From NCBI GenBank assembly GCA_016938655.1, contig JAFGUG010000043.1:62001-126000 (forward strand): a stretch of DNA of 64,000 bases. The letters run 5' to 3'. The first letter of the stretch is position 1. Every line of letters begins with the position of its first letter. The stretch is from Thiotrichales bacterium (GTDB lineage Bacteria > Pseudomonadota > Gammaproteobacteria > Thiomicrospirales > Thiomicrospiraceae). The notes below the pieces were generated by a model. It was not told the DNA's origin. It did not search any database and saw nothing but the letters and a program-made list of their open reading frames with translations. This document shows, piece by piece, positions 3,854 to 61,052 of the stretch. The position numbers were made by a program, and so were the translations under genes.

Positions 3854-3865
3854 AGCAGGCCTGCT
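3854..3865. repeat. Dispersed palindrome AGCAGGCCTGCT
   Basis: A perfect 12-base palindrome after nrtC, flanked by AAACC and TACTTTTA. It is one of 16 exact GCAGGCCTGC copies in the window. Confidence 0.9.
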
Positions 3866-4006
3866 TACTTTTAAAATCGGCTTTGCACCAAATTGAATCA
3901 CTGACGCAATTGTAGCGTGTAGTTAAATAGATAAATAGCGCATTAAAATCTTCTAAAAATTATTTAAGTGTTTGAAATAATAACGTTAATTTAGTTTTTA
4001 GAAAGT

Positions 4007-4021
4007 TGGCACTATTGTTGT
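4007..4021 (+). promoter_or_regulatory. Possible sigma-54 promoter for the nitrite/nitrate reductase operon
   Basis: TGGCAC-TATTG-TTGT matches the -24/-12 form TGGCAC-N5-TTGC except that the -12 C is a T. Transcription would begin near 4033, so the RNA would start with a leader containing the hairpin at 4048-4087. Nitrogen genes are often NtrC/sigma-54 controlled (established knowledge). The assignment is inference from a single match. Confidence 0.4.
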
Positions 4022-4047
4022 TAATAAAATATTAATTCTTACCTGTT

Positions 4048-4087
4048 GTCGGGTTTCACTGTTTTTCAGTGCCCGACGCATTTTTTT
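4048..4087 (+). terminator. Leader attenuator hairpin before the nas/nir operon
   Basis: GTCGGG (4048-4053) pairs with CCCGAC (4072-4077), with an inner CACTG/CAGTG stem and TTTTT loop, followed by GCA and seven T. The hairpin ends 27 bases before the start codon of the first reductase-operon gene and lies after the sigma-54-like site. It therefore looks like an attenuator in the mRNA leader and not the nrtC terminator. NasT-type ANTAR proteins prevent termination at such sites when nitrate is present (established for Klebsiella NasR and for NasT in Paracoccus, Azotobacter and Pseudomonas). It is preceded by CTTACCTGTT (4040-4049), which also occurs in the nrtA leader at 409-418. Confidence 0.6.
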
Positions 4088-4114
4088 GTTTCGGGCCAAT
4101 CTTAAAGGGTTGCA

Positions 4115-5341
4115 ATGAAGCAAAAATTAATTCTTGTTGGTTCTGGTATGGTCGGCGCACGTTTTATCGAGCGCCTGCTCATCGAAGCACCTAATCAATA
4201 TGACATTCGCGTCTTCAATAAAGAGCCGATGGGCGGTTACAACCGCATTATGCTCTCACCCGTTTTGGCGGGTGAAAAATCCCTGCCTGAGATTATGACC
4301 CACGACTTTAATTGGTATAAAACGCGTGGTGTTCATTTGCAAACAGGCACCACGGTGATTGATGTGGATGTCGATTCCAAAACCATCAAAACCGATTTAG
4401 GCGCCAGTTACGACTATGACGTTCTGGTGGTTGCCACCGGTTCTAAACCGTTTGTGATTCCGGTTCCCGGAGCGGATTTGCCCGGCGTGGTGACCTTTCG
4501 AGATACCCACGATGTCGATTTAATGCTGAAAACCGCCAAGAACCCAACCCAATCAGGCAAAACAAAACCTAAAGCCGTCGTCATTGGAGGAGGCCTGCTC
4601 GGTTTGGAAGCGGCAAATGGTCTCAAAATTCAAGGTATGGACGTCACCGTGGTGCATCGTAGTTCGGTGTTAATGAATGTTCAGATGGATGAAATCTCAG
4701 GAGGCCTGCTTAAATCGTCCCTTGAAGCACAAGGGTTACGCTTTGAAATGAACGCCAATACGCTCTCGATTGAAGGTCAAGATTACGTCACGGCGGTCAA
4801 ACTCGACAACGGAAAAGTTCTGCCCGCCGATTTAGTGGTGATGGCGGTCGGCATTCGTCCCAATGTGGAGGTGGGTCAAAAAATGGGGTTAGAGGTGAAT
4901 CGCGGCATTGTGGTGAACGATCAACTGCAAACCTCAAACGATTCCATTTTTGCACTCGGCGAGTGTGTGGAACACCGCGGAAACACCTATGGTTTGGTTG
5001 CACCCTTGTATGAACAGGCACAAGTGTTGGCTGAAGTCTTGGCGGGTAAAGCCTCGGCCTATCAAGGCAGCTTGACCTCTACCATGTTAAAGGTAACCGG
5101 TATTCAACTGTTCTCGGCGGGCGAATTTAAAGACACGCCAGAGACAGAATCGATTGTTTATCAAGATTTAACCGCCAACGTCTATCGCAAGGTGGTGTTA
5201 AAACAGAACAAAATTATTGGCTCGGTGATGTTTGGCGACACCAGCGGCGCCAAGTGGATTTTTGAACAGTTAATTTCGGGCAAGGACATGCGTGCTTGCA
5301 GAGACTTTTTAGTATTTGGAGAAGGTTTCTGTCAGGCATAA
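4115..5341 (+). CDS. FAD/NAD(P)-dependent oxidoreductase, NirB N-terminus-like (NasB/NasC type)
   Basis: A 408-residue pyridine nucleotide-disulfide oxidoreductase. It shows an N-terminal FAD fold (LILVGSGMVGARF, GxGxxG-like), a central NAD(P) fold (AVVIGGGLLGLEAANGL, about 150-165) and the second FAD contact SIFALGECVEHRG (about 270). It resembles the first ~400 residues of NirB encoded next door: both share GMVG.xFIE.L, the V(L)VATGSxPFV element and the GGGLLGLEAA motif. It therefore probably arose by duplication of that module. It has no [2Fe-2S], 4Fe-4S or siroheme motifs. A likely job is moving electrons from NAD(P)H to NasA or to nitrite reduction, as the electron-transfer subunits NasB/NasC do in other bacteria. 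It lies 30 bases upstream of nirB, behind the attenuator. Two AGGCCTGC sites fall in it. Confidence 0.8.
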   Translation: MKQKLILVGSGMVGARFIERLLIEAPNQYDIRVFNKEPMGGYNRIMLSPVLAGEKSLPEIMTHDFNWYKTRGVHLQTGTTVIDVDVDSKTIKTDLGASYDYDVLVVATGSKPFVIPVPGADLPGVVTFRDTHDVDLMLKTAKNPTQSGKTKPKAVVIGGGLLGLEAANGLKIQGMDVTVVHRSSVLMNVQMDEISGGLLKSSLEAQGLRFEMNANTLSIEGQDYVTAVKLDNGKVLPADLVVMAVGIRPNVEVGQKMGLEVNRGIVVNDQLQTSNDSIFALGECVEHRGNTYGLVAPLYEQAQVLAEVLAGKASAYQGSLTSTMLKVTGIQLFSAGEFKDTPETESIVYQDLTANVYRKVVLKQNKIIGSVMFGDTSGAKWIFEQLISGKDMRACRDFLVFGEGFCQA

Positions 5342-5371
5342 GCACTGCGGAAACTCAAAGGAAGTAAAAAA

Positions 5372-11372: not shown

Positions 11373-11450
11373 TTTTTTTGGGTATTGCTAGTCAGGCCTG
11401 TCGCATTCATAGAATAAAGCTGTTATTTTAGGTTCTTTAAATAAAATTCA

Positions 11451-11460
11451 GCAGGCCTGC
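11451..11460. repeat. Dispersed palindrome GCAGGCCTGC
   Basis: An exact copy in TTCAGCAGGCCTGCTCAG, 50 bases before the small membrane-protein gene. A CAGGCCTG core also lies at 11393. Confidence 0.9.
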
Positions 11461-11838: not shown

Positions 11839-12044
11839 ATTTTTTAAAGTGTCTTGGTTGAGCGGGTTACTTAAACCCATAAATAAATATCTTTAACTAG
11901 TCTGTTTCAACTCTAAATCAAAAATCAGCAGGCCTGTTGGGTTTTGAATTTAGGGTTTTGGTTGAGCCATTTATCGCTATAAATAGCGAGTAGTAATGAG
12001 TATACTTTGTTTAATATTTTATTAAGAAAATTAGGGTTCTTAGC

Positions 12045-13183: not shown

Positions 13184-13206
13184 AACCCAGCAGGCCTGCT
13201 GGGTTT
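13184..13206 (+). terminator. Terminator built from the GCAGGCCTGC palindrome
   Basis: AACCCAGCAGGCCTGCTGGGTT followed by TTTT: the dispersed palindrome is extended to a near loopless stem and a T-run 42 bases after the HD-GYP stop. It shows directly that at least one copy of the repeat can serve as an intrinsic terminator. Confidence 0.7.
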
Positions 13207-14233: not shown

Positions 14234-14601
14234 TCGGCTAATGTTTCCTTGGCTCCAGATTAACGATTTAAATTAAGAAAACAAGCTAATTTGTGGCAGG
14301 CTATTTGGGCTTGGAAAACTATTGAGGCGAATTTTAACTATTTTTTATGTAATAAAATCAATGGTTTAATGGATGTTATTTTTGTAGGTTTTAGGCCTGC
14401 GTGTTTAATCTGTTGTCACAGTTCGTTAAGCATTGAATGGGCGTTTTTTGAATTAATTGCGGTGAAAATGGAGTTGAAATGCACTTATATTTGAATCAAG
14501 ACGCACAAATAATCAGTTGATTTTGGATAGGCTTCTTAAACCTAACAGGCCTGTTAAGTTTAAAATCTTGGTTAAAAGGTTCAAAGATGGTTTTTTATAA
14601 A

Positions 14602-14799: not shown

Positions 14800-16236
14800 T
14801 TGGACTATTTACCGATATTTGTCAATATTAAAAATCAACCTTGCTTAATTGTTGGCGGTGGCCCGGTTGCTGCACGTAAAGCGGATCTGTTTATTAAAGC
14901 AGGGGCGATTGTGACGGTCGTTGCACCCGAACTCAAAGCCGAGATGAAACACCATTTAGCACACGGCAAAATCGTTTGGGAGATTGCGACCTTTTGTGCG
15001 GATGCCATGACCCACTTTCCGAAACCCAAATATGTTATCTCTGCAACCGACGATGAAGCGGTCAATCAAGCGGTGTATCGTTACTGCCAAAACCATGATA
15101 TTCCGGTGAATGTGGCTGACCAAACTGAATTCTGTGATTTTATTCTGCCCGCTATTGTCGATCGTAGCCCGATGACCATTGCCATTTCAACAGGCGGGCG
15201 GTCGCCTGTTTTAGCGCGATTAATGAAAGCCCGTTTGGAAACCATGATTCCATCGGGTTTTAGTCGTTTAGCGGATTTGGTGGGGCGTTATCGCCAAAAA
15301 GTAAAAGAGGCCATTACCGATTTGGATGGGCGTAAAGCTTTTTGGGAAGAGTTGTTAGAAGGGGCGTTTATTGATAAAGCGGTGCATGGCAAATTTGCGG
15401 AAGCCGAAGCGGATTTAGAGCGCAAAATTAACCAAGTGGCTGAACAGGGTCAACCGTTACCTGAAGGCGAGGTGTACTTAATTGGCGCAGGGCCGGGTGA
15501 CCCAGATTTAATGACGTTTAAGGCGTTGCGTTTGTTACAGCAAGCGGATGTGATTTTATACGATCGTTTGGTTGCGCCCGAAATTATTGAGATGGCACGC
15601 CGTGAAGCGGAACGTATTTACGTGGGTAAAAAAGACAAATGGCACAAGGTTCAGCAGCCCGATATCGGTTTAATGATGGTTGAATTGGCGAAGCAGGGCA
15701 AACGCGTAGCCCGTTTAAAGGGCGGTGATCCGTATATTTTTGGACGGGGCGCAGAAGAGGCCGAAGTGCTGGTTAGTCATGGGGTGTCCTATCAAGTGGT
15801 GCCCGGTATTACCGCCGCGGCGGGTTGCTCGATGTATGCCGGTTTTCCACTGACGCATCGGGATTATTCGCAATCGGTATCATTGGTTACAGGGCATCAA
15901 CAAGCGGGTGCAAAAGGCGTAGATTATGGTCGTTTGGCAAACTCAGGTGACACCATGGTGTTTTATATGGGGGTGAAAAACGCCCCGCACATTCAAGCAG
16001 GCCTGCTTGAACATGGTATGCCCAAAGAGACGCCGGTGGCCGTGATTGAAAAAGGCACCACGCCAGAGCAAAAAGAGACTTACTGTACCTTAGAAACCAT
16101 GGCCGAAACCATTGCGCAAAAAAACATTAAGCCGCCTTCTTTAATTATTGTTGGTGAGGTGATTAAGGTTCGGGCGCGTTTGCACCCCGTGTTACTGGCC
16201 AGTGATGGCCAGAGCGACAGTCAGGTAGCGGTATGA
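14800..16236 (+). CDS. cysG: Siroheme synthase CysG (methyltransferase, dehydrogenase and ferrochelatase)
   Basis: 478 residues, full length. It makes siroheme from uroporphyrinogen III, needed by NirB. The N-terminal precorrin-2 dehydrogenase/ferrochelatase has the NAD motif CLIVGGGPVAARKA (residues ~15-28), then ATDDEAVNQAVY and ISTGGRSPVLARL. The C-terminal uroporphyrinogen methyltransferase (from ~220) has VYLIGAGPGDPDLMT, RLKGGDPYIFGRG and VPGITAAAGCSMYAG. The start must be TTG at 14800: MDYLPIF aligns with the known MDHLPIF beginning of E. coli CysG, and no ATG fits. The ribosome site is weak, so translation may be low. One full GCAGGCCTGC (15997) encodes Ala-Gly-Leu-Leu. The stop overlaps the next start by 4 bases. 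Confidence 0.95.
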   Translation: MDYLPIFVNIKNQPCLIVGGGPVAARKADLFIKAGAIVTVVAPELKAEMKHHLAHGKIVWEIATFCADAMTHFPKPKYVISATDDEAVNQAVYRYCQNHDIPVNVADQTEFCDFILPAIVDRSPMTIAISTGGRSPVLARLMKARLETMIPSGFSRLADLVGRYRQKVKEAITDLDGRKAFWEELLEGAFIDKAVHGKFAEAEADLERKINQVAEQGQPLPEGEVYLIGAGPGDPDLMTFKALRLLQQADVILYDRLVAPEIIEMARREAERIYVGKKDKWHKVQQPDIGLMMVELAKQGKRVARLKGGDPYIFGRGAEEAEVLVSHGVSYQVVPGITAAAGCSMYAGFPLTHRDYSQSVSLVTGHQQAGAKGVDYGRLANSGDTMVFYMGVKNAPHIQAGLLEHGMPKETPVAVIEKGTTPEQKETYCTLETMAETIAQKNIKPPSLIIVGEVIKVRARLHPVLLASDGQSDSQVAV

Positions 16237-17225
16237 GCGATCACCCGTTTGCGCAGTTTTTAAGAATTTTAGGAAAGGGCCCCAAAAGCCGCCGTAGCTT
16301 AACGCAAGACGAGGCCGCCGAAGCCTTACAAATGATTTTAGCGGGCGAAGTTACCGACAAACAATTGGGTGCTTTTTTGTTGTTAATGCGTGCCAATGGG
16401 GAGTCGCAAGACGAACTGATTGGCTTTGTAAAAGGCTTGCGTGACTATTTAAAATTAAGTCAACAGGCCTCCAACGTGGATTTAGATTGGGCGGCATACG
16501 CCGGCAAATGGCGTTATCCTCCGTATTTTTTGTTGAGCGTAAAGTTGTTAGCCGAGAACGGTTACCAAATTTTATTACATGGTGATGCGGGGCAGTTTGA
16601 TAATCGATCGTATGTCGAATCGTTTTTAGAGCCGTTGCAAATTCAGCAGGCCTGCTCACTCTCCAATGCCAATGAACTGCTGGAACAGAATCGCGCGGTG
16701 TACTTGCCCTTATGTTGTTTTGCTCCGCAATTACGAGAAATTTTGCATCTTAAATCCGAGATTGGGGTGCGCACGGTGTTTAACACTGCGGTAAAACTGC
16801 TCAACCCGCTGAATGCTAAAAAAAGTATGCAGGGCATCTTTCATAAAGGGGTCGAGCACTTACATCATGCCGCATCCAGCGTAAACGGTACAGAACGTAA
16901 TTTGGTGTTTAAGGGCGAAGGCGGCGAGCCAGAGATTCGACCCGATGCGTTGAGCCATCTGTATTTTTCAAGTCATAAAACGGATGCGGAATCCGGGTTT
17001 GAAGATGTGTTATTTAATTCGATAACAGAGCGTCAAATGCGCCCAAAAACTTGGCAAAAGGAGGACTTATTTGCCTTATGGGCGGGGACTCAAGAAGATG
17101 TGTATGGTCAACAAAGTGTGGTTGCCACTACGGCGGCGGCATTGATGTTGATGGAATCAATTGATCAAACGGCCGCAGTTGTGCGCGCAAACGAGTTTTG
17201 GATAAAGAGGTCAGCAGGATGCTAG
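16233..17225 (+). CDS. ybiB: YbiB/TrpD2-like glycosyltransferase-fold protein
   Basis: 330 residues. It resembles anthranilate phosphoribosyltransferase-like proteins of the YbiB/TrpD2 group: an N-terminal helical domain (SLTQDEAAEALQMILAGEVTDKQLGAFLLLMRANGES), then a DNRSYVESF stretch in place of the classical PRPP loop. The E. coli homologue binds nucleic acids and does not make tryptophan (established). It is translationally coupled to cysG (ATGA overlap) and overlaps moeA by 7 bases, so it is read with cofactor genes; the reason is unknown. It contains a full palindrome at 16646 encoding Gln-Gln-Ala-Cys. Confidence 0.82.
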   Translation: MSDHPFAQFLRILGKGPKSRRSLTQDEAAEALQMILAGEVTDKQLGAFLLLMRANGESQDELIGFVKGLRDYLKLSQQASNVDLDWAAYAGKWRYPPYFLLSVKLLAENGYQILLHGDAGQFDNRSYVESFLEPLQIQQACSLSNANELLEQNRAVYLPLCCFAPQLREILHLKSEIGVRTVFNTAVKLLNPLNAKKSMQGIFHKGVEHLHHAASSVNGTERNLVFKGEGGEPEIRPDALSHLYFSSHKTDAESGFEDVLFNSITERQMRPKTWQKEDLFALWAGTQEDVYGQQSVVATTAAALMLMESIDQTAAVVRANEFWIKRSAGC

Positions 17226-18427
17226 AAGTGAATAACCAACTGAAACACGACTACGATACGGTATTTGATTTTGTGCTCTCTAAAACGCACATTAAACAAT
17301 CAACAGAGCAGGTAAACTTGGCCAATTTGTCGGGAAGAGTCTTAGCCGAAACGCTTTACTCGCCCATTAACCTGCCAAATTTAGCGATCAGTGCCATGGA
17401 CGGTTATGGGTTTTCTACCAAATCCAAACAGGATTTACTGCCAGTAGTGGAAACCATCTGTGCTGGGCGGGTTGATTTAAGCCAAGGTATCTCTAGTCGC
17501 AAGGCCGTTAAAATTATGACGGGTGCGGTGATTCCAGAAGGTGTGGACTGTGTGATTCCGCAAGAACAAGCCTTATTGCAACAAGGCGATACCCAACCTC
17601 TCTTAATAAAACCACAAAAAGCCATTCGTGGACAGCACATCAAAGCGGTCGGCTCCGACGTTAAAAAGGGCGCATGTCTATTTAAACAGGGACACCTAAT
17701 GCGTGCGCAAGATATCGCTCTGTTAGCGTCGGTGGGCATCGCCCAAGTCGCTGTGTTTGAAAAGGTTAAAGTGGTGGTGTTGGTGTCGGGTGATGAATTA
17801 GTTGAACCGGGTCAAACGTTAAGTTCAGGGCAGATTTACGATGCCAACTCCTCTTTAATTGGTGAGTTGGTGAAGCAACTGCCAGCGGAGTTGCTAGCGT
17901 GCGAGATGTTACCCGATGATGCTGCGACAATAGAGAGCCGACTTTTTGAATGGTCTAAAAAAGCCGATATTTTAATAACCATTGGAGGGGCGTCGGTTGG
18001 CCAAAAAGACCACGTTAAAACGGTGTTGAATTCATTAAAAAAGCATTGGAGTTGGACATTGAATATGAAGCCTGCGAAACCCTTCTCGATGGCCCTGTTA
18101 AATGATGGCATTCTGGTGGCGTTACCGGGTAACCCGTTAGCGGCATTTATGAGTTTTCAGTTGTTTGTTAAAGCGGTGATTCAAAAGTCGGCAGGCCTGG
18201 TTAAATGGCAACCGAAATCGCAACGTTTGCCCTTAATTGAATCTTCCCTAAAGTTGGCGGATAAAGTTCAATGGCTGCAAGTTAAGCGAACTGAAAAAGG
18301 CCTAAAACCCTTGTTAAATGGCTCGTCGAGTCAGTTAACGCAGTTGGTAAATGCCAGTGGGTTTATTCGTGTGAACCCTCAGCAGGCCTGCTCAAAAGGT
18401 GATTTAGTGCTCTTTTGGCCCTATTGA
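17219..18427 (+). CDS. moeA: Molybdopterin molybdenumtransferase MoeA
   Basis: 402 residues from the ATG at 17219 (AGAGG site 8 bases upstream); a TTG 21 bases earlier is less likely. MoeA inserts molybdate into adenylylated molybdopterin. Motifs: SAMDGYGF, ITGAV-like IMTGAVIPEGVDCV, SGDELVEPG, ITIGGASVGQKDHV, KPAKPFSMAL and ALPGNPLAAFMSF. It is the third gene of cysG-ybiB-moeA-mobA and serves NasA. A full palindrome at 18382 encodes Gln-Ala-Cys, and a CAGGCCTG core lies at 18192. Confidence 0.94.
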   Translation: MLEVNNQLKHDYDTVFDFVLSKTHIKQSTEQVNLANLSGRVLAETLYSPINLPNLAISAMDGYGFSTKSKQDLLPVVETICAGRVDLSQGISSRKAVKIMTGAVIPEGVDCVIPQEQALLQQGDTQPLLIKPQKAIRGQHIKAVGSDVKKGACLFKQGHLMRAQDIALLASVGIAQVAVFEKVKVVVLVSGDELVEPGQTLSSGQIYDANSSLIGELVKQLPAELLACEMLPDDAATIESRLFEWSKKADILITIGGASVGQKDHVKTVLNSLKKHWSWTLNMKPAKPFSMALLNDGILVALPGNPLAAFMSFQLFVKAVIQKSAGLVKWQPKSQRLPLIESSLKLADKVQWLQVKRTEKGLKPLLNGSSSQLTQLVNASGFIRVNPQQACSKGDLVLFWPY

Positions 18428-36725: not shown

Positions 36726-36752
36726 AAAAGTTAGCAGGCCTGCTGACTTTTT
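36726..36752. repeat. Long form of the dispersed palindrome
   Basis: AAAAAGT-TAGCAGGCCTGCTG-ACTTTTT: the GCAGGCCTGC core (36734-36743) is extended by AAAAAGT/ACTTTTT arms to an almost complete 27-base inverted repeat, terminator-like on both strands. Confidence 0.85.
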
Positions 36753-42157: not shown

Positions 42158-42201
42158 TCGTTAACCAAAACTTGTCATCTTTGCCACAAAAGGAACCCGT
42201 T

Positions 42202-43878
42202 ATGTCGGATATTGAAATCGCACAAAAAGCCAAAATGAAACCGATTATCCGTTTAGCAGAAGAAATGTTTGGTATTCCTGCCGAAGAACTTGACCCTTAT
42301 GGGCATTACAAAGCCAAGCTGTCGTTGGATTATGTGGACAGCTTGTCGCATCAAAAAGCCGAAGGTAAATTGATTTTAGTCACGGCGATTAGCCCAACCC
42401 CCGCAGGTGAAGGTAAAACCACCACAACCGTTGGTTTGGGCGATGCCATGAATCGTCTGGGTAAAAAAACCATTATGTGTCTGCGAGAACCTTCGCTTGG
42501 CCCGTGTTTTGGCATGAAAGGTGGGGCGGCTGGTGGCGGTTACTCTCAGGTGGTGCCAATGGAAGACATTAACCTGCATTTTACCGGTGATTTTCACGCG
42601 ATTGGTGTCGCTCACAATTTACTGTCGGCACTCATTGATAATCATATTCATCACGGCAATGCGTTGGGGATAGACCCTCGTCGTATTAAATGGAAACGGG
42701 TGGTGGATATGAATGACCGTGCGCTTCGCAATATCACCGTCGGTCAAGGCGGCCCTGCAAATGGGTACTTGCGTGAAGATGGGTACGATATTGTGGTGGC
42801 CTCTGAGGTGATGGCCATTTTATGTTTGGCCACCAATCGTGCCGATTTAAAAGAGCGGTTAGGGCGCATTGTCATTGGTTATAAAACCGACCGTGTAACG
42901 CCTATTTATGCGAAAGATTTAAAAGCCGATGGGGCGATGGCCGCTCTATTAAAAGATGCAATCAAACCCAACATTGTGCAAACCTTAGAGAATAACATTG
43001 CCATTGTTCACGGTGGCCCATTTGCCAATATAGCGCACGGCTGTAACTCGGTTACCGCCACCAAAACCGCCTTAAAGTTAGCCGATTACACTATTACTGA
43101 AGCGGGCTTTGGCGCCGATTTGGGGGCTGAAAAGTTTGTCAATATTAAATGTCGTTCGGCTAATTTAAAGCCATCAGCAGTAGTGATTGTGGCGACAGTT
43201 CGTGCCTTAAAGTTTCATGGAGGGGTTGAACGAGACCATTTAAACCAAGAGAACTTGAGTGCTTTAGAGATTGGTTTTGCAAATTTAGAGCGTCACGTGC
43301 ATAACGTAACGGTGAATTACGGGCTGCCTGCCGTGGTGTGTATTAATCATTTTACCTATGATTCGGACGATGAAACCGATTTACTGATACAAAAATGTGA
43401 AGCCTTAGGGGTGAAGTGCGTGGTATCCAAACACTGGGCAGAGGGGGGCGCAGGAGCCGAAGACTTGGCTAAAGCCGTACTTGATATTGTGGATCATCGA
43501 GAAGCTAAGTTGGAGTTTATGTACCCAGACAGTTTGCCACTATGGGATAAGATTGAGATGATTGCCACTAAGTTATACGGTGCAAAGACGATCTCAGCTA
43601 GCGCCAAGGTCAAGGCAGAGATTGAGCGTTTACAAGAAAAATACGGTGAATTGCCGATTTGTATGGCAAAAACTCAAATGTCTTTTTCAACGGACCCCAG
43701 TTTAAAAGGCGCTCCGCTTGATCATACTGTCGAAATCAGTGCCGTGAAACTCGAAAATGGCGCTGGATTTATTGTGGCCATTGCAGGCGACATGATGACG
43801 ATGCCAGGCCTGCCTAAAGTACCGACGGCTGAAAAAATTGATATTGATGATAACGGTGTGATTACGGGTCTGTTTTAA
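42202..43878 (+). CDS. fhs: Formate-tetrahydrofolate ligase
   Basis: 558 residues from the ATG at 42202 (AAAAGGAAC site); an upstream in-frame TTG at 42172 is unlikely. The P-loop is [17 protein letters not shown] (about 62-80), with [36 protein letters not shown] following. It makes 10-formyl-THF from formate, ATP and THF. Its place after glcDEF suggests it recycles formate from glyoxylate breakdown, or feeds the glycine-serine branch. A CAGGCCTG core is near the 3' end and a terminator follows. Confidence 0.95.
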
Positions 43879-47204: not shown

Positions 47205-47999
47205 TCAGGGTTCGAAACGCGCACCTTCAAAATCAAACAACTTCCCAGAATCGTCAAACGTTAAGGTTTGTAACACGCCGAATAGTTTTTGTGCAGTAAA
47301 CTCGGGGCTTTGCAGTTGATCGGGTGCAAGATGTCTTTGAAACGGTCTAGAGAGGGTGCTGTCTGTGGTACCCGGTTGTAGGCCAACAATGCAGACGGGT
47401 TTGCGTTTTCGGGTTAACTCAATGGCAAAATTTTTAATCAACATATTCAAGGCCGCTTTGCTGGCACGATAACTGTGCCAACCGCCCATCCGATTGTCGC
47501 TAATGCTGCCAACGCGTGCCGATAATATGCCAATCACCATTGGGTGATTTAAATCAATCTGTTTAAACAGTTGCTTTACAAATAGAGCGGGGCCTACTGC
47601 GTTGATTTGATAGGATTTATGCAGGCTTTGTGCCTCTAAACTTTGCCAGGTTTTTTCAGGTGAATATTGGTTGTCATGTAACCAGCCGGAAGCGATAAAA
47701 ACCAAATCAATAGGGGTTTTTGATGGGATTTCTAAGCAGGCCTGCTCAATTTTGTCTGGTGATTCCAAATCTATCGGAATGAAGTGAATTGGGTCTGATT
47801 TTTGTGCCGTTTGTTGTATTTGTTGGGCTAGTGCTTGCGTATTGCGTGCCATTAAAAAGAGTTGGCTGCTGGGATAACGACTTTGTACTTGTTGAAACAT
47901 GGCAAAACCAATTGCCCCCGAAGCCCCCAATATAAGAATGTTTTTGGGGGCTGTGGACAGAAGAGGTTGCTCAGTTGAAAAAGCGGGCTTGACTTGCAT
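47205..47999 (-). CDS. Short-chain dehydrogenase/reductase family protein
   Basis: 264 residues, classical SDR fold. It has an NAD(P) loop LILGASGAIGFAMF, a catalytic Ser in GILSARVGSI and Tyr-Lys in SYRASKAALNML. The substrate is unknown; bacterial CsgA/C-factor-like SDRs look similar. A full palindrome at 47736 encodes Gln-Ala-Cys (EQACLEI). It stands alone on the - strand. Confidence 0.87.
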   Translation of the reverse strand: MQVKPAFSTEQPLLSTAPKNILILGASGAIGFAMFQQVQSRYPSSQLFLMARNTQALAQQIQQTAQKSDPIHFIPIDLESPDKIEQACLEIPSKTPIDLVFIASGWLHDNQYSPEKTWQSLEAQSLHKSYQINAVGPALFVKQLFKQIDLNHPMVIGILSARVGSISDNRMGGWHSYRASKAALNMLIKNFAIELTRKRKPVCIVGLQPGTTDSTLSRPFQRHLAPDQLQSPEFTAQKLFGVLQTLTFDDSGKLFDFEGARFEP

Positions 48000-48226: not shown

Positions 48227-48703
48227 ATGATAACCCTTAAAAACAGTCTAATCTTGGCAGGCCTGCTGAGCTTTTTGATGTTAACCGGATGCGACAATGC
48301 CAATAAAAATGCACTGAGCGCCAAGCAGATTGCCGAAGACCAAAAACGTTATATGCAGCAGGTAAATCTGTGTTTTTTAAATCAGTATCCAGGGGTTGAA
48401 GTCTTTGCCAAACCGATTAACCTTGTGGCGACCGATTTAAGGGCGCAATGTTTGGATGAGTTCTCTGCTTTACGGGCCGCTCGGTTAAACTATGCGATGG
48501 TGCGTGATGTGATTGAACCGCCACCAAAAATGGTGCAGTTTGAAGTTGAGATGGCACAAGTCTTTATCGAAACGGCGCGCAGTCGTGCTAAGCTTCTATT
48601 CAAAGAGGGTTCTCCTCTACCAAAAGGGCATCCACCGATTGCCCACCCACCCATTCCGCCAACTGCTCAATCTGATGAACCTGAGCGTCAGGGCGCTTTT
48701 TAA
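48227..48703 (+). CDS. Putative lipoprotein, unknown
   Basis: 158 residues with a lipoprotein signal (ITLKNSLILAGLLSFLMLTGCDN; lipobox LTGC, Cys at about 22). The mature part is alpha-helical and ends in a Pro-rich segment (PPIAHPPIPPTAQSDEPE). The dispersed palindrome at 48257 encodes Ala-Gly-Leu-Leu of the signal helix. The family is not recognised. The DUF2237 gene follows 44 bases later. Confidence 0.8.
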   Translation: MITLKNSLILAGLLSFLMLTGCDNANKNALSAKQIAEDQKRYMQQVNLCFLNQYPGVEVFAKPINLVATDLRAQCLDEFSALRAARLNYAMVRDVIEPPPKMVQFEVEMAQVFIETARSRAKLLFKEGSPLPKGHPPIAHPPIPPTAQSDEPERQGAF

Positions 48704-49257: not shown

Positions 49258-50004
49258 TTAATCCTCTGTTAAGACATACCTTGGGCTTAATCGACCTTCA
49301 AACCAATATTGTGCAATTAAGGTTTTAGATTGGCCAGAGTAATCAAAGCTTTGCCCCAGTTGGGTTTGCATGCCTGTGGTGTTGAGTTTTAGATCTGTTT
49401 GCTGCCACTTAATGGTCTCTTTTAACGCCATTGGGTAGTAACCATCTAAAAATTTACGCATGTAGGGCCCACGTTTTACCAAATACCCGTCAGCGGTCTC
49501 TTCGAGCGATTTAGACTCGCCACTGATGCAAACCCGTGCGTGTTTTTTAACCCCTATTAATACCGCCGCTCGATTACTTTCATCAATGTTGACGGATTCA
49601 ATTTTTTCAGACGATTGCAGTGTCAGGCCACGGGTGTTGTTAGAGTTGTACTGCACCACAATTTTACGAATTGGGTCGAGGTTGTTGTGGCATTGGGTAA
49701 AGGTTACCCAGCCGTCGGTTAGAGAGGTTTGGGTGACGGTTAAGCTATTTTCTAAACCATATTGCCCAGCGGTTTGCGCTTCGGTTAACCAATTTAATTG
49801 TCCACCGTTTACGGTTATTGCATCCAGTCCGGAATCGTCCTCCAACCACGCACGTTCGGCCTCGGTCAAATCGGATAGGTCTTGAGAAATCTCAATGTCA
49901 GCGTAACTGTTGAAAGCAAATAACGACAGGCCTGCTGATAAAAGCAAGTGCTTGAGTGGTTGTTTTTGAGCAATAAGCGAGTGTTTGAGTTGGGTGGCTA
50001 TCAT
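49258..50004 (-). CDS. Putative exported protein, unknown
   Basis: 248 residues from the ATG at 50004 (AAAGGAA site on the - strand). The N-terminus has a basic stretch and hydrophobic helix (PLKHLLLSAGLSLFAFNSYA), an export signal with cleavage near residue 35. The mature protein is acidic with a TQCHNNLDPIRKIVVQY stretch and a second Cys (ARVCISG) that may form a disulfide. The family is not recognised. It lies downstream of recN on the same strand. Confidence 0.72.
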   Translation of the reverse strand: MIATQLKHSLIAQKQPLKHLLLSAGLSLFAFNSYADIEISQDLSDLTEAERAWLEDDSGLDAITVNGGQLNWLTEAQTAGQYGLENSLTVTQTSLTDGWVTFTQCHNNLDPIRKIVVQYNSNNTRGLTLQSSEKIESVNIDESNRAAVLIGVKKHARVCISGESKSLEETADGYLVKRGPYMRKFLDGYYPMALKETIKWQQTDLKLNTTGMQTQLGQSFDYSGQSKTLIAQYWFEGRLSPRYVLTED

Positions 50005-50126: not shown

Positions 50127-51791
50127 TTAGTTGAGTTTTTGTGCGCTGTGTAACATCTCCTTAGCATGCCCAAGGGTTTGTTCTGTTACCGTCAAACCGC
50201 CCATCATTCTAGCCAGCTCTTCAACCCGTTGTTGTGGTGCCAGTTCAATCACTTGTGTAAAGGTCGATTCATCTTTGGTGTGTTTTTCAATACGCCAATG
50301 GTTGTGGCCATGCGAGGCGACTTGCGCTAAATGGGTGATCGATAAAATCTGCTTGTGTTGACCCAGTTGTTGCATTTTTTTACCAACGACTTCGGCGATA
50401 CCGCCGCCAATACCGACATCGACTTCGTCAAATATGAGGGTCGGTAAGCTGGCGATTTCAGCGGTGGCAACTTGAATCGCCAAGCTAATACGCGACAGCT
50501 CTCCACCGGATGCGACTTTAGCCAATGGCTGCAAGGGTTGGCCTTTGTTGGCCGTAACTAAGAAGTCGGTTTTGTCGGTGCCTTTTGCCGTGGGGGAGGT
50601 GTTGGTCAGTTGAACGTCAAATAGACCGTTTGGCATGCCAAGTGTGTGCATCGCATCGGTGACGGTTTTGCTTAATGTTTTACAGGCTTTTTGACGTGAT
50701 TTATTGAGTTTTTCAGCACAGGTTTGGTAGGTTGACCAGGCCTGCTCAATTTCAATTTGCAGTGTTTCTAATTCAGAGTCAGAGTGTTCAAGTTGAGTAA
50801 TCTCTTGTTTGATTTGTTGATGTTTTTCAACCAACTGTTCCGGTTCAATGAGGTATTTTTTAGCTAACCCAAACAGGGCGTGTAATCGATCATCAAGCAG
50901 GGTTAACTGCTCTGGATCGAGTTCGATTTTTTCCGCATGGTGTTGGACTTCACTGGCCGCTTCTTGAATGTCAATTAAGCTGCTGTTGAGTTGCTCTATG
51001 GTGCTTGCCAGCTCTGGACTGAAGTTCACAATCTCTTCTAATGCAGATAAAGCGTGTTGAATGTGGTCGGTTGCGCCGCTTTCGCCTTCCAAATTTTCGT
51101 AACAAAGTTGGCAGGCCTGCTTAATTTCATTGGCGTGCGAAAGCTGGCTCTGTTGTTCTGATAGCTCGGCAAACTCGCCCTCTAACGGATTAACGTCATC
51201 AAATTCTGTTTGTTGAAAGTTTAATAGGTCTAAGCGGCTTTGAAAATCGCTCTGGGCGGCTTTAAGGGTTTCAAAACGCTTATTCAGGGTTTGCCAAGTT
51301 TTAAAACTTATTTGGGTGTTTTCAATCAAAGTAGGATGATTAGCGTATGCATCCAGTAGCGTGAGTTGCTGACTCGCCGATAACAGCGATTGGTGTTCGT
51401 GTTGGCCATGAATATCAATCAGCAAATTGCCTAAGGTTTTCAAGCTGCTGGCCGGAATAGGGCGGCCGTTAATATAAGCCTTTGAACGCCCCTCTGAGTT
51501 AACGGTGCGTCGCAACATACATAAGTCTTCATCATCCAAATCTTGTTCGGCTAACCAGTGTTGGATGTGGGGCAGTTGGCTAATATCAAATTGTGCAGTC
51601 ACATCCGCACGCGGGGTGTGATAACGAACCAAACTGCTGTCGGCACGTTCGCCCAATGCCAAACCAAGGGCATCCAATAAAATCGATTTACCCGCCCCGG
51701 TTTCGCCGGTTAAGGTGGTAAAGCCCGTTTTAAAATTTAAGGTCAGTTTTTCAATTAATGCGAGGTTCTGAATCGAAAGTTCTTGCAGCAT
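50127..51791 (-). CDS. recN: DNA repair protein RecN
   Basis: 554 residues, SMC-like. Walker A is GETGAGKSILLDALGLALGE (about 29-40). A central coiled coil follows, with a C-terminal signature ASGGELSRISLAIQ and Walker B LIFDEVDVGIGG. It helps double-strand break repair by recombination. One full palindrome (51111) and one CAGGCCTG core (50737) fall in the coiled-coil part, encoding Gln-Ala-Cys and Gln-Ala-Trp. No LexA box was identified upstream. Confidence 0.95.
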   Translation of the reverse strand: MLQELSIQNLALIEKLTLNFKTGFTTLTGETGAGKSILLDALGLALGERADSSLVRYHTPRADVTAQFDISQLPHIQHWLAEQDLDDEDLCMLRRTVNSEGRSKAYINGRPIPASSLKTLGNLLIDIHGQHEHQSLLSASQQLTLLDAYANHPTLIENTQISFKTWQTLNKRFETLKAAQSDFQSRLDLLNFQQTEFDDVNPLEGEFAELSEQQSQLSHANEIKQACQLCYENLEGESGATDHIQHALSALEEIVNFSPELASTIEQLNSSLIDIQEAASEVQHHAEKIELDPEQLTLLDDRLHALFGLAKKYLIEPEQLVEKHQQIKQEITQLEHSDSELETLQIEIEQAWSTYQTCAEKLNKSRQKACKTLSKTVTDAMHTLGMPNGLFDVQLTNTSPTAKGTDKTDFLVTANKGQPLQPLAKVASGGELSRISLAIQVATAEIASLPTLIFDEVDVGIGGGIAEVVGKKMQQLGQHKQILSITHLAQVASHGHNHWRIEKHTKDESTFTQVIELAPQQRVEELARMMGGLTVTEQTLGHAKEMLHSAQKLN

Positions 51792-52911: not shown

Positions 52912-52912
52912 A

Positions 52913-54166: not shown

Positions 54167-55594
54167 ATGGGAATTCGGGTAAAGTTAGTCGCCTTTTTGC
54201 TATTGTTTGGTTTTGTGATTTTGGGCACGTTAATTTGGAGCAATCAATTTGTGTTGCACAAGACCATCTTGCACTACGTTGACCAACGAGATCAGCAGCG
54301 TTTGGAAAGAGTTAAAAATAACTTTGAGGTTTACCTTCAGTATGAACCCATTGCGCAAGCCAGTGATGTTTCTGAGGAAATGTGGTTAAGACTTTTACGT
54401 TTCTCTCATCGTGTTGACTTGGTTCAAGTTCCCACGATGATTCCGTTAGTCATCAAGCGCGATTTGCGTCGTCGTCCACCCCCACTAGATGAATTTGAGG
54501 TACGGGTCAGCTTGATGGCTAGTAGTGGCCAACTGTTGTATGGGCCGCCGCTTGAAAAGCACGCGTTGCGTCTGCCCATACTTGAGAATGGCGTCGAGGT
54601 TGCGCAGATCGGTTATCAACCATTAAAAGAGTTGACCGATCGGGCGGACATTGAGTTTAGCCAATCCCAATTTAAAATGCTCAGTTTGGGGGCGGTGTTG
54701 ATTACCTTGTTAGCCTTGATTTTACTGTGGCCGCTCGCCAACCATTTTTTAACCCCCATTCGCCAGCTAACCGAAGCGATGCACCGCTTAAGTGGCGGGG
54801 ATTTAAGTAAACGTTTAACCGTCAAACGCCAAGATGAGCTGGGTGAGTTACAACGTGATTTTAACCATTTAGCCACCACGCTTGAGGCCGCGCAACACAG
54901 CCGTAATCAGTGGATTGCCGATATTTCGCACGAACTCAGAACCCCCTTAACGGTTTTGAATGGTTCGATTGAGGCGATGTGTGATGATGTACGCCCTTTG
55001 AATAAGCAGAATTTGCAGGCGTTGCAACAAGAAGTGGCTTTGTTGCAACGGTTAATAGAAGATTTATACCAGCTGAGTTTGAGTGATGTGGGGGCGTTGC
55101 AATATGCGATGCAACCGCTCAATGTTTCAACGCTCATACAGCAGAGTGTGGCGCAGTTCTTACCTAAAGCACAAAGTAAATCGTTGCAATTAATTTGCCA
55201 AACTGAAAGTCAGCAGGCCTGGGTGTTTGGGGATGAAAATCGTTTAAGCCAACTGCTCAATAACTTGTTAAGTAATGCGTTGGAATATACCGATGCGGTT
55301 CAGCAAAACGGCGAACGGGGATTGGTTAAGGTGACGTTGACAAAAAAAATGAATCATTGGCAGTTAGTTGTTGAGGACTCTTCACCTGGGGTTCTGCAAG
55401 CGGAGTTGTCACAATTAAGCGAGCGGTTTTTTAGAACGGATAAATCTCGCAATCGTCGCAGCGGAGGGGCAGGATTAGGCTTGGCGATGGTGCAGCAAAT
55501 TGTTAAGGCACATCAAGGCACCCTTAACTTTGAATCCTCTGAGTTAGGCGGCCTTAAAGTCGTTGTCAGTTTACCGATGGAGAGTCAAGGATGA
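54167..55594 (+). CDS. Two-component sensor histidine kinase (BaeS/CpxA-like)
   Basis: 475 residues. Helix 1 (about 7-28), a periplasmic domain with an RRRPPPLDEF segment, helix 2 (about 168-192), HAMP (about 193-245), HisKA with phospho-His255 in DISHELRTPLTVLNGS, and HATPase with NNLLSNALEYTD and GGAGLGLAMV. A strong AGGAGG site precedes it. It overlaps the regulator gene by 4 bases. The set with a Spy/CpxP-like protein downstream suggests envelope stress sensing. It contains a CAGGCCTG core. Confidence 0.92.
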   Translation: MGIRVKLVAFLLLFGFVILGTLIWSNQFVLHKTILHYVDQRDQQRLERVKNNFEVYLQYEPIAQASDVSEEMWLRLLRFSHRVDLVQVPTMIPLVIKRDLRRRPPPLDEFEVRVSLMASSGQLLYGPPLEKHALRLPILENGVEVAQIGYQPLKELTDRADIEFSQSQFKMLSLGAVLITLLALILLWPLANHFLTPIRQLTEAMHRLSGGDLSKRLTVKRQDELGELQRDFNHLATTLEAAQHSRNQWIADISHELRTPLTVLNGSIEAMCDDVRPLNKQNLQALQQEVALLQRLIEDLYQLSLSDVGALQYAMQPLNVSTLIQQSVAQFLPKAQSKSLQLICQTESQQAWVFGDENRLSQLLNNLLSNALEYTDAVQQNGERGLVKVTLTKKMNHWQLVVEDSSPGVLQAELSQLSERFFRTDKSRNRRSGGAGLGLAMVQQIVKAHQGTLNFESSELGGLKVVVSLPMESQG

Positions 55595-58774: not shown

Positions 58775-58798
58775 AAATTAAAAAAATGGGGTTTAGCA

Positions 58799-58827
58799 CT
58801 TGAAAACAAAATCGCTGACCCTATAAA
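58799..58827 (+). promoter_or_regulatory. Sigma-32-type heat-shock promoter of dnaK
   Basis: CTTGAA, 14 bases, CCCTATAAA, the same -10 as before grpE, about 53 bases before the dnaK ATG. A TTAGCACTT (half CIRCE) overlaps the -35, but a matching right arm is poor. Confidence 0.65.
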
Positions 58828-58879
58828 TCGAACAACAGTAAATAAGTATTAAAAAATTTAAGTTTTGGAGATGTCAAAC

Positions 58880-60796
58880 ATGGCAAAGATTATCGGTATT
58901 GATTTAGGTACAACAAACTCGTGTGTTGCAGTAATGGAAGGCAAAGACATTAAAGTTATTCCAAACGCTGAGGGTGCACGTACAACCCCATCTATTGTTG
59001 CTTACACAGCAGACGGTGAGATTTTGGTGGGTGATTCAGCAAAACGTCAAGCGGTGACGAATCCTGAAAACACACTGTTTGCTATTAAGCGTTTAATCGG
59101 TCGTCGTGCGGATGATGCGGTTGTTGCAAAAGACAAAGACATGGTTTCTTACAAGATCATTGCGGCTGATAACGGAGATGCTTGGGTAGAAGCAGGTGGT
59201 AAAAAACTTTCTCCACAAGAAGTGTCTGCGCGTACATTAATGAAAATGAAAAAAACAGCCGAAGACTATTTAGGTTACGAAGTTACCGAAGCGGTGGTAA
59301 CCGTTCCGGCTTACTTTAACGATGCACAGCGTCAGGCAACCAAAGATGCCGGTAAAATCGCTGGTTTAGAAGTTAAACGTATTATCAATGAGCCAACGGC
59401 CGCGGCATTGGCTTACGGTATGGATAAAGCAACCGGCGACAGCAAGATCGCAGTGTACGACTTAGGTGGGGGGACATTTGATATCTCAATCATCGAGGTG
59501 GCTGACTTAGATGGCGAGAAGCAAGTTGAAGTATTGTCTACTAACGGTGACACGTTCTTAGGTGGTGAAGATTTTGATAACGTCATCGTTGATTACATCG
59601 CTTCTGAATTTAAGAAAGATCAAAATGTTGATATTAAGTTAGATAAGTTAGCGTTACAACGTGTACGTGAAGCGGCTGAAAAAGCTAAAGTTGAATTGTC
59701 TTCTCGTGAACAGACAGACATCAACCTACCTTACGTTACAGCTGATGCAACTGGGCCTAAGCACTTAAACATGAAAATTACCCGTGCTAAGTTTGAGTCA
59801 CTGATTGAAGCATTAGTTAAGCGTTCTATTGAGCCATGTAAAGTCGCTCTTAAAGATGCAGGCCTGTCAGCTTCTGAAATTGACGATGTTATCTTAGTGG
59901 GTGGTTCAACACGTGTACCAATGGTTCAAGCGGCCGTTAAAGAGTTCTTCGGTAAAGAGCCACGTAAAGATGTGAACCCTGATGAAGCGGTCGCAATGGG
60001 TGCGGCGATTCAAGGTGGGGTTCTTTCTGGTGACGTTAACGACGTCCTGCTTTTAGACGTGACACCTCTATCTCTTGGTATTGAGACTATGGGTGGCGTG
60101 ATGACTAAGTTAATCGAGAAAAACACCACGATTCCAACGCGTAAGTCGCAAGTATTCTCAACCGCAGAAGACAACCAAGCTGCGGTAACGATTCATGTCC
60201 TTCAAGGTGAGCGCGAAATCGCTTCAGGGAACAAGTCTTTAGGTCAATTCAACCTAGACGAGATTCCTGCGGCACCACGTGGTACACCACAAATTGAAGT
60301 GACCTTTGATATCGATGCCAACGGTATTCTAAATGTTTCGGCTAAAGATAAAAACTCTGGTAAAGAGCAACATATCACAATTCAAGCCTCTTCAGGTCTG
60401 TCTGAAGAAGAGATTGAGAAAATGGTGAAAGATGCCGAAGCGCATGCTGAAGAAGATGCCAAAATGAAAGAGTTGGTTGAAGCACGTAACCAAGCGGATG
60501 CGATGGTTCATGCCACTCAGAAAATGGTAAAAGATGCGGGTGACTCGGTTGATGCAGCTGAGAAAGAAGCGGTTGAAGCGGCAATTAAAGCGGTGGAAGA
60601 AGCCATTAAAGGGTCTGATAAAGCGGCGATTGAAGCGTCTGTGACTAAGCTAGCGGAAGCAAGTCAGTCAATTGCTCAGAAAGCGCAAGCGCAACAGCAA
60701 GCTGGTGGTGCGGAAGCTGAGAAGCAAGGTTCTGCAAAAGATGCGGATGACGACATCGTTGACGCAGAGTTTGAAGAGGTAAACGATAAAAAATAA
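58880..60796 (+). CDS. dnaK: Molecular chaperone DnaK (Hsp70)
   Basis: 638 residues from [18 protein letters not shown] at 58880; the ATG at 58871 would add three residues and is not canonical. ATPase signatures are [23 protein letters not shown] and [11 protein letters not shown]. The substrate-binding domain follows, and the C-terminus is Ala/Gln-rich ending [16 protein letters not shown], typical of gammaproteobacteria. It has its own heat-shock promoter in addition to read-through from grpE. A CAGGCCTG core lies at 59859. Confidence 0.98.
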
Positions 60797-60805
60797 ATAT
60801 TAACT

Positions 60806-60892
60806 GAGCTAGCAGAGCTGGACTCTGTGTTGGAAAATGATCACGTTCTCATGTACGCTCACATTTTCCGCCTTGATTCAGCAAGCTATCTC
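60806..60892 (+). ncRNA. Candidate structured RNA element between dnaK and dnaJ
   Basis: Three helices nest as a multibranch fold. GAGcTAGC (60806-60813) pairs with GCTAtCTC (60885-60892) with one mismatch. CAGAG-CTGGA-CTCTG forms a hairpin at 60813-60827. GGAAAATG (60832-60839) pairs with CATTTTCC (60862-60869), with extra pairs inside. No known Rfam family was recognised. It may be a processing site or 5' element controlling dnaJ. Confidence 0.4.
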
Positions 60893-61042
60893 GATAAATA
60901 CAATTATTATCGTTTTTAAAATGCACGGATAACTTAGATTTTTAAGGCGTTCGTGCTTTTTTATATACAAAATTCTATAAATTAAATACCAAAATATATT
61001 CACTTAACTAAATTGCATTGTGTAGTTTCTATTTAAAAGTAA

Positions 61043-61052
61043 GCAGGCCTGC
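61043..61052. repeat. Dispersed palindrome GCAGGCCTGC
   Basis: An exact copy in AAAAGTAAGCAGGCCTGCTGGTTTT, 69 bases before dnaJ. Confidence 0.9.

Follow-up and report, generated by a model that had tools for sequence, protein, structure and literature searches.

The palindrome CAGGCCTG, taken together with its dialect flanks, is on balance probably an uptake-sequence-like self-recognition word of the Thiomicrospiraceae; its pattern of occurrence suggests a third such word, palindromic and lying outside the Neisseriaceae and Pasteurellaceae. Sequence-specific DNA uptake is described for those two families in the published accounts drawn on here, where their words are held to have evolved independently.

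Exact matches to GCAGGCCTGC and CAGGCCTG in the window, the whole stretch of 64,000 nt that was analysed, numbered 16 and 32 respectively (Table 1), and every position given in an earlier sequence-only reading was reproduced on recount. The numbers expected under Markov models fitted to the window (orders 0-4) are 0.57-2.8 for CAGGCCTG and 0.03-0.45 for GCAGGCCTGC, the highest expectations coming from the order-4 model, into which much of the word is already built. The source draft genome of 2.93 Mb, assigned to the Thiomicrospiraceae on the basis of its dnaK, contained 596 copies of GCAGGCCTGC and 1173 of CAGGCCTG, the latter at approximately one per 2.5 kb, against 0 and 2 for the respective reversed-word controls. 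The excess claimed from the window was in this way confirmed genome-wide; the word was neither close to its Markov expectation nor confined to the window, the two outcomes named beforehand as counting against the claim. The reported division of the full copies into nine intergenic and seven genic also held when they were assigned to ORFs of at least 100 amino acids. In other genomes, the gap following dnaK carries the core with different flanks (G008, G005, G032, G035 and G018) or lacks it (G014, G015, G040 and G003).

Table 1. Copies of the word in the window, with location relative to ORFs of at least 100 amino acids
Motif	Position	Strand	Location
GCAGGCCTGC	3855..3864	.	intergenic
GCAGGCCTGC	11451..11460	.	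intergenic
GCAGGCCTGC	13190..13199	.	intergenic; inverted repeat lengthened by flanks
GCAGGCCTGC	15997..16006	.	ORF 14800-16236
GCAGGCCTGC	16646..16655	.	ORF 16233-17225
GCAGGCCTGC	18382..18391	.	ORF 17198-18427
GCAGGCCTGC	25065..25074	.	intergenic
GCAGGCCTGC	28476..28485	.	intergenic
GCAGGCCTGC	33177..33186	.	intergenic
GCAGGCCTGC	34230..34239	.	ORF 33973-34698 (-)
GCAGGCCTGC	34812..34821	.	intergenic
GCAGGCCTGC	36734..36743	.	intergenic; A and T tracts in long inverted repeat
GCAGGCCTGC	47736..47745	.	ORF 47205-47999 (-)
GCAGGCCTGC	48257..48266	.	ORF 48227-48703, close to first possible start
GCAGGCCTGC	51111..51120	.	recN ORF 50127-51791 (-)
GCAGGCCTGC	61043..61052	.	intergenic, directly after dnaK
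CAGGCCTG core	3170..3177	.	ORF 3004-3798
CAGGCCTG core	11393..11400	.	intergenic
CAGGCCTG core	11929..11936	.	intergenic
CAGGCCTG core	14546..14553	.	intergenic
CAGGCCTG core	18192..18199	.	ORF 17198-18427
CAGGCCTG core	31423..31430	.	ORF 30222-32672
CAGGCCTG core	31653..31660	.	ORF 30222-32672
CAGGCCTG core	31903..31910	.	ORF 30222-32672
CAGGCCTG core	37758..37765	.	ORF 37251-38369 (-)
CAGGCCTG core	39829..39836	.	ORF 38505-39941
CAGGCCTG core	41904..41911	.	ORF 40973-42157
CAGGCCTG core	43805..43812	.	formate--tetrahydrofolate ligase ORF 42172-43878
CAGGCCTG core	49927..49934	.	ORF 49258-50043 (-)
CAGGCCTG core	50737..50744	.	recN ORF 50127-51791 (-)
CAGGCCTG core	55214..55221	.	ORF 54167-55594
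CAGGCCTG core	59859..59866	.	dnaK ORF 58865-60796

Counts of CAGGCCTG were bimodal among 62 genomes of the order, with 236-1173 copies in 32 genomes, at a density of approximately 0.12-0.55 copies per kb, and 0-74 copies in 30. None of the 365 sampled genomes of the class from outside the family (at least 90% complete) exceeded 338 copies. Restriction of hundreds to thousands of copies to one clade is a trait of uptake sequences, as is an inner core that stays conserved while its surroundings differ between lineages as dialects. The sequence-only reading had taken GCAGGCCTGC as the unit; its abundance stands, but the unit common to different species is CAGGCCTG, and GCAGGCCTGC is mainly the dialect of the source species, AG-CAGGCCTG-CT. 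The commonest flank in 11 of the 16 rich relatives sampled was AC-CAGGCCTG-GT (G008, G014, G015, G018, G035, G040, G048, G064, G066, G067 and G072), while mixed or other flanks were found in G005, G032, G047, G057 and G063. Dialect flanks are coherent genome-wide, with symmetric A/T tracts alongside.

In 402 kb of the source genome, the palindromic arms previously described around intergenic copies were evident in the flank-letter frequencies of the 88 non-coding copies, with A at -8, -7 and -6 in 83, 88 and 80%, T at -4 in 77%, and A at -2 and G at -1 each in 86%. Positions -5 and -3 were unconserved between conserved neighbours. The A/T-rich flanks lie 10-12 bp from the dyad and are present, but weaker, in coding copies. 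Perfect cores outnumbered singly mismatched cores by 193 to 104 in the same 402 kb and by 200 to 90 in 440 kb of G035, where order-2 Markov models give 96.5 and 94.6 single mismatches respectively, so that the observed mismatches are near chance. According to the sections of PMC1626085 on this point, such an unusually strong consensus is common to the uptake sequences of the Pasteurellaceae (USS) and Neisseriaceae (DUS), unlike the sites of regulatory proteins.

Copy density in the source genome was 4.19 per kb in convergent gaps, 1.48 in tandem gaps, 1.05 in divergent gaps and 0.30 in coding DNA, the convergent value exceeding the coding value 14-fold (8-fold in G035). The convergent excess was absent from a 60-kb sample of G008 and hardly present in a 60-kb sample of G063, which also showed little preference for non-coding DNA. 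Such a preference combined with many genic copies characterises uptake sequences; 105 of the 193 copies in the source-genome sample lay in genes, with flank letters as in intergenic copies. The word was not depleted in atypical genes, the minimum in G035 falling in the most typical quartile. An interval noted earlier as devoid of copies (18.4-25.1 kb) is real, but spacing overall is that of a random process with an exponential fit (CV 1.03 over 191 gaps), departing from the somewhat more regular spacing described for uptake sequences in PMC1626085, a trait that does not define them.

Copies originate by substitution, as uptake sequences do, and not by insertion: alignment gaps interrupted the motif in 9 of the 255 comparisons between orthologs, which were drawn non-independently from 93 sites, versus 215 of 5100 random windows. 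Of 224 comparisons with word-rich genomes, 84 retained the motif, as did 1 of 31 with low-count genomes; copies turn over between species. Within genes the word overrides codon choice. The tripeptides [APST]GL were spelled nCAGGCCTG 64 times against 3.3 expected in the source genome and 76 times against 1.5 in G035, with corresponding values for QA[CW] of 38 against 4.6 and 34 against 2.8. In a low-count control (88 genes from four genomes) the values were 0 against 1.0 and 2 against 0.7.

The likeness to HIP1 or to DNA uptake sequences that had been proposed was supported for its uptake half by the consensus, dialects, A/T flanks, intergenic sites, origin by substitution and family restriction, with spacing as the misfit. 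In the HIP-type alternative, which follows the model for HIP1 in PMC4390886, methylation-directed mismatch repair and a DNA methyltransferase that recognises AGGCCT or CAGGCCTG would together ratchet the word upwards. The word is an over-represented GC-rich palindromic octamer, and its outer base pair is more tolerant (43 AGGCCT sites with one wrong outer base against 22 expected, beside 193 perfect sites in the source genome); HIP1 and alternate HIPs of cyanobacteria are likewise frequent genome-wide and lost in some lineages (PMC4390886, in part). Abundant HIPs generally accompany matching methyltransferases in that account, whereas in a search confined to the cytosine families PF00145 and PF01555, neither was matched by 13 of the 32 genomes rich in the word; of these 13, 11 are at least 99% complete. 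None of the nine genomes in genus g17 (840-1128 copies) had a PF00145 match. These absences are not in themselves fatal, because some HIP1-rich genomes described in the same source have no CGATCG enzyme. A repair ratchet fails, moreover, to explain the density in convergent gaps, the A/T arms and the flank dialects, of which the last two set the word apart from HIPs. A cytosine-methyltransferase origin is not supported, and the HIP-type explanation as a whole is unlikely.

It is also improbable that the word belongs to a 24-bp palindromic target for the dimer of an abundant protein that structures the nucleoid or organises the chromosome, even though the extended site, two-fold symmetric and carrying A tracts, has a shape suited to a dimeric DNA-binding protein and random spacing is no argument against a general nucleoid protein. 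Sites such as matS and those of SlmA and Noc are patterned relative to origin and terminus; in G035, the one genome analysed in this respect, no such pattern was found over 20 stretches of 20 kb (mean 8.95, variance 11.7). A consensus this strong, with no surrounding cloud of near-matches, differs from regulatory-protein sites as characterised in the relevant part of PMC1626085. Weak selection on individual sites would hardly make the word 8-20 times as frequent in coding DNA of the source genome as codon usage predicts while sites turn over.

Very little likelihood attaches to a Chi-like word controlling recombination by RecBCD or AddAB. Chi is also an octamer of about 1000 copies, the word is comparably exact, and dialects could track changes in the reading enzyme. 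Chi, however, is a polar, non-palindromic single-strand signal acting on these enzymes, whereas CAGGCCTG is palindromic, A/T-armed and enriched between genes. A species-specific intrinsic-terminator stem and nothing more is highly improbable: density peaks in convergent gaps and 28 of 43 copies in tandem gaps lie nearer the upstream stop, but the many genic copies share the flank letters, and folding to -12 kcal/mol or below within 40 nt was found for only 16 of the 88 non-coding copies (median -6.85 versus -6.2 for genic copies). A mobile REP- or MITE-like repeat spread by a transposase, which high copy number, palindromy and intergenic location might recall, has a negligible probability given the lack of excess gaps in ortholog alignments and the unconserved positions lying between conserved ones.

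If the word is an uptake sequence, it would be read by a trans-acting factor, probably a component of the machinery for natural transformation (type IV pilus, ComEC), that favours double-stranded DNA bearing the palindrome, and the favoured DNA would recombine into the genome. Because incoming DNA with the word would be both favoured and recombined, word-bearing alleles would be copied preferentially, and the word would therefore accumulate to the densities given above. Accumulation would proceed by point substitution at tolerant places, with re-creation keeping pace with decay, and drift in the specificity of the reader may yield species dialects. The chances are close to even, if slightly adverse, for a fuller version, in which this is a third independently evolved uptake-sequence system and the first that is perfectly palindromic, with uptake or integration of the family's own DNA through a hitherto undescribed dimeric reader other than ComP that recognises a 24-bp symmetric site, drifted into species dialects and was lost or replaced several times within the family, erasing the word. 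The existence of a drive is inferred, as are the action of its reader in uptake, as opposed to another recombination-coupled step, and the nature of that reader. Four copies on a viral contig of 8.3 kb count against the uptake reading, as do the lack of depletion in atypical genes and the samples of G008 and G063 with little or no convergent excess.

Regarding host uptake machinery, 31 of the 32 word-rich genomes matched ComEC, but so did 25 of the 30 low-count ones, and all but one of the 62 have pilin-type genes; no tested gene tracks the word, because both are also widespread where it is scarce. Two rich drafts were without a match, G009 (655 copies) for pilins and G006 (236 copies) for ComEC. 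ComP, the receptor that defines the Neisseriaceae system, was sought with PF16732 (ComP_DUS), which gave no match above cut-off in the 62 genomes and one sub-threshold match in a low-count genome, in a search that lacked a positive control since 0 of 14 control genomes matched. PF12019 (GspH/FimT) matched three genomes, all low-count. For USS, the material cited here describes the receptor as no more than predicted.

A close parallel is the DUS, which has dialects and is read by ComP; the pertinent parts of PMC3630211 describe hundreds to thousands of copies, an inner core with dialect flanks, family members devoid of the word, and location both in genes and at intergenic sites of permissive or terminator-like character, all as found here. 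The present word differs in being unrelated, fully palindromic and without a PF16732 match over cut-off. In the corresponding portions of PMC1626085, DUS is without flanking motifs, unlike the A/T-armed word, and the spacing of USS and DUS is near one per kb, denser than the one per 2.5 kb or so of the source genome. USS is non-palindromic with one-sided A/T segments (PMC1626085 and PMC12616744, in part), in contrast to the two-sided arms of the palindrome. If the uptake reading is correct, a third case, in sulfur oxidisers, would test how uptake words arise, spread and vanish, and the occurrence of rich and poor species with natural dialects in one order would make the receptor searchable by gene-content comparison. 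Should the reader not be an uptake receptor, the data still indicate an undescribed drive rewriting codons and proteins genome-wide. The second replicon of G015 also carries the word, with 39 copies per 100 kb sampled, 20 of them AC-flanked on both sides.

The sequence-only reading had described a highly iterated palindrome across the window, and all of its coordinates proved exact: 16 copies of GCAGGCCTGC, the 10-nt form bearing the flanks of this species, and 32 of the octamer core CAGGCCTG (hereafter the word) lie in the 64 kb, against Markov expectations fitted to the window of 0.03-0.45 and 0.57-2.8 respectively. Over-representation was not confined to the window. The draft genome of 2.93 Mb (95.7% complete, 7.7% contaminated), in which the window occupies C97:62001-126000, contains 596 copies of GCAGGCCTGC and 1173 of CAGGCCTG, while the reversed words used as controls occur 0 and 2 times. 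The closest dnaK relatives with a genus name were Thiomicrospira, Thiomicrorhabdus and Hydrogenovibrio, and the titles of these relatives, from which the family name was taken, suggest that the organism is a sulfur oxidiser of the Thiomicrospiraceae.

Extending the count to related genomes, as had been proposed, yielded a bimodal distribution among 62 genomes of the order, with 236-1173 copies of CAGGCCTG in 32 (rich) and 0-74 in 30 (low-count). Rich genomes comprised 15 of 32 in the organism's own genus, 7 of 11 in genus g14, all nine in g17 and the single genome of g18; the low-count group includes all nine genomes of g13, g15 and g16. In an even sample of the class, made up of 370 genomes at least 90% complete of which five belong to this family, the highest count outside the family was 338 (G259, 4.1 Mb). 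The phenomenon is real, strong and spread across the family. On a dnaK tree of 31 genomes of the genus (15 rich and 16 low-count; G039 had no dnaK match and was left out), the rich state requires at least four changes, two of them forced by well-supported branches. Low-count genomes G011, G016, G036, G037 and G001 are nested in a mostly rich clade, which suggests that they have lost the word. No replacement word was found in the four of 30 low-count genomes sampled (G003, G034, G042 and G050; 140 kb in total); the only strongly enriched palindromic octamer, in G050, was discarded because one tandem array of 318-bp units accounts for it.

The unit common to the species is CAGGCCTG, while its flanks form species dialects. 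AG..CT is the dialect of this genome (AG on both sides in 73 of 193 copies) and AC..GT that of the rich relative G035 (102 of 200). In a survey of 16 rich relatives, with 20-440 kb sampled per genome, AC was the commonest flank in 11 (G008, G014, G015, G018, G035, G040, G048, G064, G066, G067 and G072) and flanks were mixed or other in G005, G032, G047, G057 and G063. Because the flanks are dialects, GCAGGCCTGC is nearly absent from genomes such as G018 (6 copies against 1106 cores). Non-coding copies in this genome share the consensus AAAnTnAG-CAGG|CCTG-CTnAnTTT, with A at 83, 88 and 80% at positions -8 to -6, T at 77% at -4, A at 86% at -2 and G at 86% at -1, positions -5 and -3 being unconstrained. 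Coding copies show the same letters more weakly (44, 53 and 48%, then 59, 63 and 60%). This extended consensus in both classes of copy suggests that a putative reader would recognise double-stranded DNA with two-fold symmetry, in which A tracts lie roughly one helical turn away from the dyad. The A-tract arms around the word are unusually strong in G047 (L174 and L175), with A at 75-87% at -9 to -5 in eight copies only.

Tests of codon use, turnover, spacing and mobile-element origin covered 402 kb of this genome and 440 kb of one relative. Perfect cores numbered 193 against 104 single mismatches in this genome (96.5 mismatches expected) and 200 against 90 in G035 (94.6 expected); mismatches were thus at chance overall, with outer-base mismatches raised in this genome (43 against 22.4 expected). 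Within genes the word overrides codon choice. The peptide [APST]GL was encoded as nCAGGCCTG 64 times in this genome (3.3 expected) and 76 times in G035 (1.5 expected), and QA[CW] as CAGGCCTGn in 38 of 46 peptides (4.6 expected) and 34 of 42 (2.8 expected). In 88 genes of four low-count genomes the corresponding figures were 0 against 1.0 and 2 against 0.7. Both rich genomes also had more QA[CW] peptides per 1000 codons (0.41 and 0.34 against 0.16), and the word therefore seems to alter proteins. Of 255 comparisons between orthologs, which cover 93 sites and are not independent, 9 had a gap inside the motif, as had 215 of 5100 random windows; the rate being no higher than in random windows, the word arises by substitution. 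Conservation at orthologous sites, a further check that had been suggested, was partial: 84 of 224 comparisons with rich genomes retained the motif, as did 1 of 31 with low-count genomes. The analysis of gaps between orthologous genes covered only 44 conserved gene pairs. In the gap 3' of dnaK, the core is present with differing flanks in this genome, G008, G005, G032, G035 and G018; none was found there in G014, G015, G040 or low-count G003.

Taken together, these properties are judged, with a little better than even confidence, to make CAGGCCTG work most like a DNA uptake sequence, and biased uptake would be the best-fitting mechanism. A drive exerted through a reader is suggested by the gain and loss of copies, their effect on codons and proteins, the near-exact core and the dialect shared genome-wide. 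In the excerpts of PMC1626085, uptake signal sequences (USS) and DNA uptake sequences (DUS) share an unusually strong consensus and are mostly non-coding, yet with many copies within genes, and USS have A/T-rich flanking repeats and are not insertions; these traits recur here. According to excerpts of PMC3630211, DUS have dialects around a conserved core, some relatives show no obvious DUS, and copies can form terminator-like pairs; the conserved core, dialects, word-poor relatives and terminator-like placement are likewise found here. Known uptake words, however, occur near one per kb and somewhat more regularly than random (PMC1626085, in part), whereas copies in this genome lie about 2.5 kb apart with spacing consistent with a random process, which counts slightly against this reading. 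The excerpts of these accounts also give no precedent for a palindromic uptake word. ComEC was found in 31 of 32 rich genomes and also in 25 of 30 low-count genomes. Formal membership among uptake sequences can only be provisional, since the spacing differs and the one known receptor family tested was not found to accompany the word. No literature on Thiomicrospira with an uptake sequence was found, which does not exclude earlier print; matches listed for GCAGGCCTGC bore titles unrelated to bacterial genome words, and in passages of one Hydrogenovibrio paper the only "palindrom" match was the CRISPR abbreviation.

No reader was found across the 62 genomes, where neither candidate family correlated with the word: PF16732, searched without a positive control, gave one sub-threshold match, in a low-count genome, and PF12019 gave three matches, all in low-count genomes. 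Pilin N-termini (PF07963) numbered 2-3 in low-count g14 genomes G049, G050, G055 and G056 and 7-10 in the rich ones (G047, G048, G051-G054 and G057), a difference that, judging by the sizes of the genes and their order, seems to reflect a pseudopilin cluster of type II secretion. In g17, where all nine genomes are rich, four have just 2-3 matches; pilin counts therefore fail to follow the word from genus to genus, and because g17 contradicts the g14 pattern a causal pilin link was rejected. Prepilin motifs, read in the comEC region of G063 and in the pilin-match regions of 13 genomes, revealed similar prepilin genes in rich and low-count genomes.

By a simple gene caller, copies in the 402 kb fell in genes (105), convergent (30), tandem (43) and divergent (14) gaps and at a contig end (1), or 0.30, 4.19, 1.48 and 1.05 per kb for coding, convergent, tandem and divergent sequence. 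The densities in G035 were 0.32, 2.47, 1.69 and 0.78. In thin 60-kb samples, convergent gaps held 1.77 against 0.24 per kb coding in G018, 0.75 against 0.66 in G063 and no copies in G008. Only 16 of 88 non-coding copies in this genome fold to <= -12 kcal/mol, and termination therefore appears to be a secondary function that some copies have. No origin/terminus trend in word density was found in G035. Depletion in atypical genes was considered and rejected, there being none in this genome, while copies in G035 are sparsest among the most typical quartile of genes (0.21 against 0.33-0.39 per kb).

The HIP model, in which methylation-directed repair builds up a word (PMC4390886, in part), is disfavoured as far as cytosine enzymes are concerned. 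Cytosine methyltransferases PF00145 and PF01555 do not track the word across the 62 genomes: none of the nine g17 genomes has PF00145, and neither family was matched in 13 of 32 rich genomes (G009, G014, G017, G030, G032, G040, G048, G052, G054, G068, G069, G071 and G072), although some HIP1-rich genomes also lack the expected enzyme according to the same excerpts. PF00145 matches four times in the whole draft. The likeness to HIP1 or to uptake sequences drawn by the sequence-only reading fits well on the uptake side, except for spacing, and is not supported for HIP as regards these two families.

The second replicon of G015 carries 39 copies in 100 kb, and its dialect is looser, since AC stands on both flanks in 20 of 39 copies against 7 of 8 on the main contig (40 kb). 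Only 4 and 15 stretches of a viral collection matched the two extended palindromes. One, contig L238, found with the AC-type pattern, has AC..GT flanks in two of its four copies, and possibly belongs to a phage that infects a Thiomicrospiraceae host and carries the host word. The longest word-free stretch of the 402 kb would be expected in about 1 of 30 samples of this size, as estimated from the mean gap.

Coordinates of individual loci
Location	Genome	Observation
L176:9056-16022	G050	Tandem array, 17 units of 318 bp in a row; probably a giant repeat protein
L174:5734-10936	G047	Tandem array, 18 units of 306 bp in a row; probably a giant repeat protein
C97:38781-40998 (outside the window)	G000 (this genome)	Pair of neighbouring C5 cytosine methyltransferase genes (PF00145) that may form a restriction-modification system
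C3:91192-93146 (L210)	G000	Two genes at 32% GC within a 9-kb word-free gap; one has a reverse-transcriptase-like start (by eye), possibly a retroelement island
C3:162757-180508 (L214 and start of L215)	G000	Longest CAGGCCTG-free stretch, 17.7 kb; by eye, its genes resemble those of a carboxysome/RuBisCO operon
L238:497, 3922, 6921, 8039	IMGVR_UViG_3300005470_000015	Four CAGGCCTG in 8.3 kb of a viral contig
Window 28663-32672	G000	NADH-quinone-oxidoreductase-L-like gene (PRK08168), then an 816-aa protein (no NCBIfam match at 1e-10) whose gene has three CAGGCCTG cores; an arrangement reminiscent of the DAB inorganic-carbon transporter
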